A stretch of DNA of 33,014 nucleotides from Halarchaeum acidiphilum MH1-52-1 (GTDB taxonomy: Archaea; Halobacteriota; Halobacteria; Halobacteriales; Halobacteriaceae): assembly GCF_000474235.1 (NCBI RefSeq), contig NZ_BATA01000023.1, forward strand, positions 1 through 33,014, read 5' to 3'. Shown piece after piece: positions 1-18,258 of the stretch. The notes under the pieces are model-generated. The model saw only the letters and a list, made by a program, of their open reading frames with translations. It did not search any database and was not told the DNA's origin. How positions within the stretch are numbered: the stretch's first letter is position 1; each line of letters begins with the position of its first letter. The position numbers and the translations under genes were made by a program.

Positions 1-101
1 ACTACGAGTCCGACGACCTCGCGCAGTTCGTCCGCGTCGGCTTCGCGCGCTACGATCGCACCGAGGACGACGAGACTGTCGCGTACTACACGCACCAGTG
101 A
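1..101 (+). CDS. C-terminal end of an unidentified protein (partial)
   Basis: Only the last 32 codons lie in the window, ending in TGA at 99-101. The frame reads as an acidic haloarchaeal tail finishing in the residues VAYYTHQ, with aspartate and glutamate clustered in a TEDDE stretch. I do not recognise the family from so short a piece. It is convergent with tmcA, whose stop lies 185 bases downstream on the other strand, and the space between holds a set of palindromes. The call as coding rests on codon use (G or C at most third positions) and on the absence of any earlier stop in this frame. Confidence 0.55.
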   Translation, partial: YESDDLAQFVRVGFARYDRTEDDETVAYYTHQ

Positions 102-122
102 ACCGCCTCGGGTCAAGTGGTT

Positions 123-225
123 CGAGACGCCTTCGGCGTCTCGTCATGGCGGGAAATCGAAGATTTCCCGCTTGCAGTCGGGAAGCGGACGCGTTCCGAC
201 GGCATCACGAAGACCGGCGGTCTTC
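123..225. repeat. Array of three perfect palindromes between convergent genes
   Basis: Three perfect inverted repeats follow one another. At 123-143, CGAGACGCC and GGCGTCTCG flank a TTC loop. At 150-170, CGGGAAATC and GATTTCCCG flank a GAA loop. At 209-225, GAAGACC and GGTCTTC flank a GGC loop. The first two have the same geometry (9-base stems, 3-base loops) and reverse-complementary loops, with six bases between them. A looser pair, GTCGGGAA (178-185) and TTCCGAC (194-200), lies between the second and third. The place is right for back-to-back terminators of the two convergent genes, but the regularity also fits a dispersed haloarchaeal palindromic repeat. Confidence 0.7.
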
Positions 226-285
226 CGGACGACCCCCGAGGCACTCGGCCTGCCCAGCCTGTAGAACGACGCGCGCGTCCACTCC

Positions 286-2672
286 TCACCGCTGTTCTTC
301 GTCTTCGTGTCGCGCGCGTTCCGCGCGCGCCGCGTCGCCGCCCCACGCCTCGCAGAGCGGTTTCAGCGCGTCGCCGAACGCGCGCATCGCCTGCCCGGTC
401 GAGTGATAGCCCAGCGAGTCGGCGACGGCGTCCCACGAGCGACACTGGAGGAGCTTCAGGACGAACAGCCGCTCGCGCCTGTCGGCCTCGTCCGCCGCGT
501 CGCCCGCGTCGTCCCCGTCGCCCGCGACGAGCGAGGGGGCGTCGTCGCGGACGAGCGCGCAGACGGCGAGTCGGCGGAACGGCGCTGGATCGACGCTGTA
601 CATCGCCGAGCCGTAGGCGGAGCCGGCGACGACGCGCCACCGGTCGTCGGAGAGGGCGGGCGCGGGCGTGGCGTCGCAGGCGGCGAGCGCGGCGCGCGCG
701 ACGTCCGGATCGAGGTCGCGGAGGGCGTCGACGAGCACGTCCGCGATCCGGTCCGCGAACCACGACTCGTGGCGGGCGGCGAGCGCTTCCCCGTCGGCGC
801 TCAGCGGATCGAGCATGAGGACGGAGTACTCGCCGCTCGTGTCGTTGCGCGTCGTCGAGAGGTGGACGGTCGAGAAGCCGTTGCGCGCCCAGAAGCGAAG
901 CAGGTCGGCCGTCGCGCCGTAGCCGACGCCGAGCCAGTCTCGATCCCCGAACTCCGCGCGGACGCCGTCGAGGAGCGCGGATCCCAGCCCGCGAGAGCGG
1001 GCGGCGTGGTGGGTTGCGATGCGGACGACGCGCGTGCCGACGGGTTCGGCGGCACGCTCGTCGCGCAACTGGCTCGTGAGGACGTCCGGGAGCATGTTGC
1101 CCTTCACGCGTCTCCCGGTGTACATCGCCTCTCGGGTATCGGCGTCGAGACCCCCCTCGCGCGCGAGGAGGGCGACGGCGACGACGTGGCCGTCGTGTCG
1201 GAGGGCGCGCACCGAGAGGTTCGGCGCGTCGAGCAGCCGGGCGAGGTCGTCGGGTTCGGTGCGGTAGTGGGCGGCGACGAGGAGACCGAACGCCTCGCGG
1301 AGCAGAGTCTCGTCGGCGGCGAGCGTCTCGCTGTCGAGGGCGTCGTACGTGCAGGTCTCGGGGGTGGCGTCGGCGACGAGCGGCGCGACCGGTGGTCGGG
1401 CGTCGAGCAGGAGCGCGCGGAAGGCCCACACCTCAACGGGGTCGCCGGCGGCGTACCGGATCGGGTCGTCGAGGCGGACGTCGGTGACGTCGATGTCGCT
1501 CTCGGCGAGGACGTCGCGGAAGCGGACATCGAACCCGCGGCCCGCGCCCTCGTAGCCGTGGACGGTCGTGGTGAACGCGACGGCGTCGGCGTCGAGGCAG
1601 CGTTCGAGGAGGCGGACGGGGAGCGCGGCGGCCTCGTCGACGAGGAGGACGTCCGCCTCGTCGGTCGCATCGACGGCGTCCGGGGGGCGCGCGTAGCGGA
1701 TCTCGCCGCCGGCGTCGAGAGCGAGTCGCGTGTGTTCGGGACGCCGGTGGTCGACGTCGAGATCGTCGAGCAACGCGTCGGCGCGCTCGTAGAGTTCGCG
1801 GACGCCGCGGAACGACGGCGCGGTGACGCGGACGTCCAGTCCGTCGGCGGCGAGGCCGGCGGCGGCGAGGCCGGCGGCGCTCGTCTTCCCGCGGCCCCGG
1901 TCCGCCTCGCAGACGACCGCGCTCCCGGGATCGCGGAGCGCCTCGAAGGCGCGGACGGCGTCGACCTGATCGGGGGTGAGACAGGCCTCGTACGCGGCGG
2001 CGGGGAACGCGTGCTCGTCGGGGACGGACGGGGCGGGCTTCGCGCGGCGCGGGGCTGGATGCGTGAGTCCGTCGTCCTCGATCGTGACACCGTTCGGGGC
2101 GTCGCCGCGCCGATCGCCGTCGCTCGAATCGGTGAGGGAGACGACGGCGACGCCGCGGTGCGCGCGGAGAGTGGCGACGAGACGCGCGCGAAAGCGGCCC
2201 GCCACGTCCCGACGTCGAACGGGGGGACGGCCATGCTCGAATCGAACTCGTCGCGGTGCTCGGGCCAGTCGTCGAGGGGCGGCGTCACGAGGACGAGGAG
2301 TCCGCCGCCGTCGACGGCGCCGGTGATGCGGCCGAGCGCGTTCGGGCGACACTCGTCGCGGGCGTCGTAGACGATCGCGTCGCGCGTGGTACCGAGGAGG
2401 TCGCCGGTCCCGCGAGGGTCGAGGCGCTCGCAGCCGAGACCGTCGCGGTGGCCGACGAGCGTCGTCGCCGCGCGCTCGATGTCGGCGGCGTCGAGGGCGG
2501 TCGCGGCGGCGGCGAGACCGTTGTCGCGACCCGGCTCGCGGTCGCCGTCGCGGTCCTCGATGTCCGCGTCCGGCCCGTTCCCGCCCGGTCCGTCGGCGAG
2601 GACGAGCAGGCGGCGCTCGTTCGTCTCGCGGGCCTCCGCGCGGAGCCGACTCGCGACCTCCGAGAGCGTCAT
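286..2672 (-). CDS. tmcA: tRNA(Met) cytidine acetyltransferase TmcA, frameshifted once near 2208
   Basis: TmcA makes N4-acetylcytidine at the wobble base of elongator tRNA-Met, using acetyl-CoA and ATP to drive an RNA helicase module. The repaired protein is about 795 residues, normal for the family. It has an N-terminal DUF1726-type domain beginning MTLSEVASRLR, a Walker A motif DRGRGKTSA (about residues 258-266), a helicase acidic box LLVDEAAALP (about 342-352), the conserved VKGNMLPDVL, and a GNAT acetyl-CoA site IATHHAARSRGLGSALL (about 552-568). The N-terminal part (2672 to about 2208) and the rest are in different frames. One extra C at 2208-2210 joins PPFDV to GDVAGRFRARLV. I infer a sequencing deletion, because the rest of the protein is unbroken. 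The start is ATG at 2672, where the family begins. It is divergent from rpl7ae. Confidence 0.93.
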
Positions 2673-17964: not shown

Positions 17965-18036
17965 TGGACTCGCCGGGATTTGAACCCGGGGCCTCTCCCA
18001 TGCCAAGGGAGTGATCTACCACTGATCTACGAGCCC
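17965..18036 (-). tRNA. tRNA-Ala, anticodon GGC
   Basis: A 72-base cloverleaf. Acceptor GGGCTCG pairs with CGAGTCC and contains the G3-U70 wobble pair that marks alanine tRNA. The D-stem is GATC/GATC, the anticodon stem CTCCC/GGGAG with loop TTGGCAT (anticodon GGC, reading GCC and GCU), and the T-stem CCGGG/CCCGG with loop TTCAAAT. The discriminator is A at 17965; no CCA is encoded, as is usual in haloarchaea. There is no intron. An AT-rich box (TTCAATTA on this strand, 18067-18074) about 33 bases upstream may be its promoter. Confidence 0.96.
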
Positions 18037-18103: not shown

Positions 18104-18258
18104 AACCCTTTAGCGTCCGAGACGCCCAGTGATCCGTAGGGAACTGCACGGCCGCATATCCGACGCGCCACGCGTTCGCGTGGCTTGGGAGTGTGGCAGT
18201 GCTCGGGCGCACCCGCGCCCAGCGCCGCACAGCGGTTCGTGTCGTTCCAATTCACACC
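18104..18258 (+). promoter_or_regulatory. Promoter region and structured leader of the rps15 operon
   Basis: A box ACCCTTTAG near 18106-18113 could start a message near 18136 with a leader of about 120 bases. Two hairpins lie in it: GCCACGCG (18167-18174) with CGCGTGGC (18177-18184), and GGGCGC (18205-18210) with GCGCCC (18215-18220). Another AT-rich spot, GCATATCC (about 18154-18161), is a second possible TATA box and would shorten the leader so that the first hairpin lies at its very start. Confidence 0.4.

Follow-up and report, generated by a model that had tools for sequence, protein, structure and literature searches.

Transposons of the IS200/IS605 family have subterminal palindromes, and IS608, as described in PMC5934647, inserts 3' of a tetranucleotide that stays in the left flank. 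PATEs, as described by Dyall-Smith et al. 2011 (PMC3119063), consist of fused IS605-type ends with a near-terminal palindrome and a short targeting oligonucleotide, cause no target duplication and carry no gene; terminal-only forms of 52 bp were reported. The SMR-A repeats of the same description are about 110 bp long, have inverted terminal repeats, cause no duplication and lie within near-terminal palindromes of PATEs and IS605 elements, and their insertion was proposed to inactivate IS605 elements. In REPINs (PMC3116915), two hairpin motifs are inverted as one unit and the stems show compensatory changes, while REPs have a GTAG or CGTC tag at the hairpin foot (PMC3733652).

We analyzed a stretch of 33,014 nucleotides from Halarchaeum acidiphilum MH1-52-1 (contig NZ_BATA01000023.1; hereafter the window), in which an array of hairpins lies between two genes. 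The array very probably belongs to a mobile element of two layers, namely the fused ends of an IS200/IS605 transposon (a terminal-only PATE) and, within their palindrome loop, a small repeat cassette. The features of the locus are listed in Table 1.

Table 1. Coordinates of the inserted element, its target and its hairpins in the window.
Feature	Position	Strand	Remarks
Inserted element as a whole, 163 bp (minus sense: AGGCTGG...GGTTCAC)	98..260	-	gltX and CTAC joined in three same-genus genomes
gltX stop codon TGA	99..101	+	Provided by element end GTGAA; stop is TAG within GTAG in L184 and L185
End palindrome 3' arm CCCGAGGC	105..112	-	Right-end-derived GGTTCAC comes next
Inserted hairpin cassette, 115 bp, TCGT...ACCA	118..232	-	Empty palindromes have CTTGA right after GGGG
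Outer hairpin B	123-143	none	9-bp perfect stem, loop TTC on +
Inner hairpin	149-171	none	10-bp perfect stem, loop GAA on +
Inner imperfect hairpin	177-200	none	From the fold
Outer hairpin A	209-226	none	7-bp perfect core 209-225, loop GGC on +
End palindrome 5' arm CCTCGGGG	237..244	-	Left-end-derived sequence runs on to 260
Target tetranucleotide CTAC (GTAG on +)	261..264	-	Kept 5' of element; adjoins gltX in L184, L185 and L186

The outer element and its parent transposons

The gene on the left is gltX, represented by its C-terminus and ending at 101 on the plus strand. Its identity comes from the orthologue in a same-genus genome (L184), which matches archaeal glutamate--tRNA ligase models over the available length and has nearly the same final residues as the window. 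The right gene is tmcA, with its stop codon at 286-288 on the minus strand. In the minus sense, the window reads CTAC-[163 bp]-TGGTGCGTGTAGTACGCGAC. CTAC was joined directly to the gltX end, without the element, in all three of the same-genus genomes compared; the junction reads TGGTGGGCGTAGTACGCGAC in L184 and L185 and TCGTGCGCGAAGTACGCGAC in L186. The homology at these empty sites covers the gltX side only, the relatives diverging beyond CTAC. Judged from this comparison, the outer element lies exactly between CTAC and the gltX sequence that are joined in the relatives, and was placed exactly 3' of CTAC without target duplication. The pre-insertion target GTAG on the plus strand contained the gltX stop codon TAG, as in L184 and L185. 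Since the element end GTGAA gives TGA, the gltX protein terminates at the same place.

An extra reading frame is present between tmcA and gltX in many of the 22 relatives read (L184, L185 and others), which may encode a DUF456-like membrane protein; it is absent in L204 and L205. In the window (101-286), the element alone remains between the two genes.

In its outer 48 bp, the element matches the two ends of an IS200/IS605 (tnpA/tnpB) transposon fused together. Relatives of the element are of three kinds: left ends, which read TCTACAGGC...GAGTG-palindrome-GGTGAAGGCCG; right ends, which read palindrome-GGTTCAC and lie 3' of a tnpB 3' region; and terminal-only copies, which fuse the left part of the left end with the right part of the right end. 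The window copy shares with the terminal-only PATEs of PMC3119063 the fused ends, a near-terminal palindrome like that of IS605-type transposons, a short targeting sequence at one end without target duplication (seen in L184-L186, with homology on the gltX side only) and the lack of a gene, being too short at 163 bp to encode a transposase. By all the PATE features compared in the sequence, it is a terminal-only PATE. It differs from the described forms in that its palindrome loop holds a 115-bp hairpin cassette, and it comes from another organism and another sequence family. With the IS200/IS605 family, as represented by IS608 (PMC5934647), it shares the subterminal palindromes and insertion 3' of a left-flank tetranucleotide, here CTAC, but the window copy has neither tnpA nor tnpB.

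The exact empty left end was found in 40 of the 392 genomes of the order. Among 30 such loci that were read, 20 had, at a distance of 251-273 bases, a divergent Y1 TnpA signature (at least three of these tnpA genes are interrupted), and one had a TnpB signature together with a matching right end. Four full-length elements of 2,032-2,119 bp (L357, L358, L359 and L360) were read throughout. Their left ends are all empty and their right ends all contain a cassette, and every one has a long tnpB frame. The tnpA gene was identified in the first three: it is interrupted in L357, and L358 and L359 (the latter in a 102-aa frame) matched Y1_Tnp at 6.4e-36 and 3.7e-30 and the TnpB domain at 1.1e-16 and 1.7e-18, respectively. 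In the assembly of H. acidiphilum itself, which is 89.5% complete, a Pfam search for Y1_Tnp found one gene (on C74), followed by what reads as a tnpB-like frame; from its sequence, the ends of this element are other palindromes than those of the window element.

The original prediction had offered a substrate of a Y1-type transposase as one option. This is supported for the outer part, whose ends are those of Y1_Tnp-encoding elements; for the inner hairpins no enzyme was found. The outer element, inserted 3' of CTAC in the gltX stop codon, probably moved there through a Y1 transposase supplied in trans and working on its folded single-stranded ends. The cassette would have entered the palindrome loop before or after this mobilization and would have been a passenger afterwards. 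A Y1 enzyme would be the natural guess for its mover as well, by analogy with REPINs as described in PMC3116915. We infer all three of these points, that is the Y1 mechanism, the order of events and the mobility of the cassette itself by some enzyme.

Structure and distribution of the hairpin cassette

In the window, the original prediction had reported three perfect palindromes with 3-base loops between convergent genes. The convergent orientation was confirmed, and all three stems are real. The array has, however, four hairpins, the fourth being imperfect. The two stems described as 9-base, with loops TTC and GAA and six bases between their 9-bp cores, have the loops and the spacing claimed, although the GAA stem extends to 10 bp; the 7-base stem with loop GGC is present as described. 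Hairpin B and the inner perfect hairpin are the sole stems of at least 9 bp with a 3-nt loop in the window. Since a mean of 0.98 such stems was found per shuffled window (200 dinucleotide shuffles), one hairpin alone is unremarkable. The cluster is remarkable: two or more stems of at least 7 bp with a 3-nt loop occurred in 1 of 20,000 shuffles of 123-225. Rfam at gathering thresholds gave no family match at the array; elsewhere in the window it matched an S15-Halobacteria ribosomal leader (18137-18202, plus strand) and a tRNA (17965-18036, minus strand), which lie close together.

The cassette lies inside the end-palindrome loop. When empty, the palindrome has the sequence CCTCGGGG-CTTGA-CCCCGAGG, and when filled CCTCGGGG-[TCGT...ACCA]-CTTGA-CCCCGAGG, with arms that vary. 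The usual cassette is 54 bp long and has two hairpins, its halves being inverted repeats, while the window copy has two extra central hairpins. In 47 distinct 54-bp cassettes, whose right end is invariant because the search pattern demanded it, the halves showed an inverted identity of 0.57, compared with 0.26 in direct orientation and 0.25 in shuffles.

A marker 17-mer of filled copies, CTCGAACCACTTGACCC, was found in 109 of the 392 genomes and 51 of the 95 genera of the order; its reversed control was found in 0 of 392. Among 114 distinct copies, 112 were parsed: 87 had two inner hairpins, 11 had four and 14 had other counts, some of the latter reflecting mis-parsing, and the left-arm parser misassigned some rows. 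The hairpin and loop statistics below use the 104 copies within set lengths (10 of the 114 were left out), which come from many genomes and comprise 97 distinct inserts. In the own genome, a sequence search gave 47 matches at E<=10, the weakest of which are probably chance, and a covariance model built from the 47 cassettes gave 15 matches at E<=1e-4 on 11 distinct places, the window being included in both cases. The array is thus present in several copies, and these copies together with the spread of the marker support the dispersed haloarchaeal palindromic repeat that the original prediction had also proposed. One own-genome locus (L002) has a related four-hairpin array in a different palindrome. 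Three others (L004, L009 and L010) carry hairpin arrays that are longer or of another kind and whose linkers differ (TGATGTCGTC, CAACATTG); these possibly form a second array family, and those of L004 and L009 repeat as hairpin pairs.

The covariance model gave 7 to 80 matches per genome at E<=0.01 in 12 hand-picked genomes, with some places scored on both strands. It matched all 11 genomes sampled within the order and 3 of 69 outside it, the latter at 31.1 bits or less. These three genomes (G416, G425 and G432) belong to one genus of the same phylum, and their matches are possibly an unrelated paired-hairpin repeat. A further search with the 17-mer gave at least 120 matches. Among the matches listed, 17 of 80 titles were bacterial and none of these 17 had hairpins; among the remaining 103 of those listed, 87 had at least one perfect hairpin and 16 had none. 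In a plasmid collection 50 records matched, and the best 40 of the 50 bear haloarchaeal names, mostly without an annotated feature under the match. A phage collection had no matching record.

The stems of the cassette vary and remain paired. In the 47 cassettes, 98.0% of cells were paired, compared with 88.7% in shuffles, and two-sided changes were found in 85 cells, compared with 32.1 in shuffles, counts that are inflated by relatedness among copies. The change is almost limited to two adjacent pairs per stem, and 84 of the 94 stems have one of the blocks GA/TC, AT/AT or CG/CG there. Just 5 of the 752 cells had a one-sided change, for example G-U, and 15 cells were unpaired. This small number of one-sided intermediates, as opposed to gradual change through G-U, suggests that, at the DNA level, hairpins exchange blocks or serve as templates for one another, and it disfavors RNA-level selection as the sole source of the stem covariation.

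The 104 copies contain 214 hairpins with at most one mismatch; 175 are perfect, and loops of the GNA or TNC type are found in 152. The closing pair is C-G in 168 of the 171 perfect hairpins of distinct inserts. GNA loops with G-C pairs are described as extraordinarily stable DNA mini-hairpins (PMC4686876). The loop triplets of the 104 copies are nearly strand-symmetric (GAA 54 and TTC 33; GGA 34 and TCC 23), and this symmetry coexists with stems that are strongly purine-rich on one side. Loop flipping was not supported as the cause of the symmetry: among cassettes identical outside their loops, reverse complements made up 14 of 86 loop differences, compared with 13.8% expected from loop frequencies.

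It is possible, though we consider it doubtful, that the cassette is one of the published Haloquadratum SMR-A families (HqIRS42, 43 or 55). As in the description of SMR-A (PMC3119063), it is a small repeat with inverted halves, inserts without duplication and lies within near-terminal palindromes of PATEs and IS605 elements, and its four-hairpin form is 109-115 bp long. A 54-bp cassette was also found in a right end (L251) on a contig titled Haloquadratum sp. J07HQX50. However, the commonest form and basic unit is 54 bp, the stems are exchanged as blocks, and the cassette occurs at other sites as well. In addition, the published types are described as conserved, commonly over 95%, whereas the cassettes here vary strongly in their stem blocks and are nearly all distinct inserts; this comparison is a loose one, because the published figure applies within one species and our cassettes come from many genomes.

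Sites of the cassette and transposition of filled ends

On the INDEPENDENCE of both layers, forty contexts returned by the covariance-model search were read. The cassette was found in left ends, in right ends, in terminal-only copies, in another repeat and within tnpA, with no target duplication wherever empty relatives were compared. In one left end (L428), joining the flanks gives a sequence with 99% identity over 102 nt to left ends that are empty (L366/L225). Within a tnpA gene of G220 (L417), the cassette breaks the reading frame and introduces a stop codon, and the joined flanks align gap-free to intact tnpA genes. The same tnpA site is filled in four genera (L417/L080 in G220, L209 in G178, L220/L357 in G243 and L230 in G390), with 54-bp cassettes that differ in their loop triplets. 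These may represent one event that spread with the host element, or a hot spot, and not necessarily four events. Two scans were made, and in the stricter one 14 of 16 distinct tnpA sites had no insert, the other 2 having exactly 54 bp. In L422-L424, L429 and L431, the cassette lies in a different repeat that continues CTCCTTGAG; compared with the empty L269 and L289, the repeat of L422 is only 79-80% identical, with a gap near the junction, so that this border is less certain. On these alignments, cassettes sit in several host contexts with clean borders.

The sites are not confined to palindromes, in which they differ from SMR-A as described. Among 39 sampled covariance-model sites, which are not independent, 19 were apices of stems of at least 6 bp, and palindrome-only targeting of the cassette was rejected.

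Filled ends were found repeatedly at different places. In G221, three copies of the 3' region of tnpB share one identical filled palindrome, each with a different flank. In G220 (three copies, L419-L421) and in G033 (seven copies, L397-L403), left ends share an identical or almost identical cassette and differ in their flanks. To judge from these near-identical filled ends at different flanks, cassette-filled ends have transposed, the cassette riding along. Many cassette copies could derive from few insertions. The multiplication of filled ends also suggests that, within the end hairpin, the transposase depends on the lower stem and can do without the tip.

It should be considered whether the hairpins belong to the transposon end itself, as an elaborated end structure or a guide-RNA scaffold, with no separate element. 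Filled ends are indeed widespread and transposing, and the right end is filled in all four full-length elements. In one of these (L358, minus strand 180-1529), the tnpB frame crosses the entire cassette, so that the hairpins are coding for a C-terminal tail; in the G221 copies (L174, L175 and L177), the tail of the tnpB frame was read as stopping at a linker TGA. This explanation nevertheless seems improbable to us, because cassettes also lie inside tnpA and in another repeat, because an empty end of 99% identical sequence exists, and because four-hairpin forms are present in left ends, right ends and other palindromes. Least probable of all is the two-way transcription terminator of the original prediction, or a 3'-end stabilizer, selected between the convergent genes: better folding than in shuffles was seen for both strands (z -2.8 and -2.9), but a search of both strands of 1-500 gave no T-run terminator, the element is missing next to gltX in three same-genus genomes, and other copies sit in transposon ends and tnpA. 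The array may shape the 3' ends of the gltX and tmcA transcripts, though without a terminator signature.

Relation to known repeats and wider meaning

The preferred reading remains a terminal-only PATE as outer element, with a cassette in its palindrome loop. The cassette resembles SMR-A in target choice and REPINs in architecture. Like the REPINs of PMC3116915, it has two REP-like hairpins in inverted orientation and compensatory stem changes; unlike them, it is archaeal and many of its host sites are transposon ends. Since the conservation described for SMR-A was not seen and no enzyme was found for the cassette, we class it as a new variant and not as a member of either, the distinction from SMR-A being drawn from the published description. 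In the literature searched, supplements aside, no paired-hairpin cassettes in IS605 ends were described apart from SMR-A.

A broader reading may be put forward tentatively, and taken as a whole we would not expect it to hold in every part. The 54-bp cassette would be a haloarchaea-wide mobile unit in its own right, among the smallest, that inserts without duplication and prefers the hairpin loops of transposon ends. It would be moved in trans by a Y1 enzyme, have its stems block-exchanged at the DNA level and grow by hairpin pairs. Carried in IS605 ends as a passenger, it would in this way also enter the right-end hairpin that TnpB guide RNAs have.

The multiplied filled ends argue against the idea, proposed in PMC3119063, that such repeats exist to inactivate IS605 elements in general. 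The tnpA genes broken by the cassette in four genera indicate that some insertions do disable the host gene, so that both outcomes occur.

For Halobacterium salinarum, guide RNAs that include a right-end hairpin have been described (PMC12558985), and by analogy the filled right ends would form part of TnpB guide RNAs. Transcription of such ends, if it occurs, would give many haloarchaeal TnpB guide RNAs extra hairpins near the guide. The block-wise stem changes amount to a natural experiment in which palindromes remain perfect as their sequence shifts, and the element is well suited for studying movement and change in the smallest of mobile DNAs.
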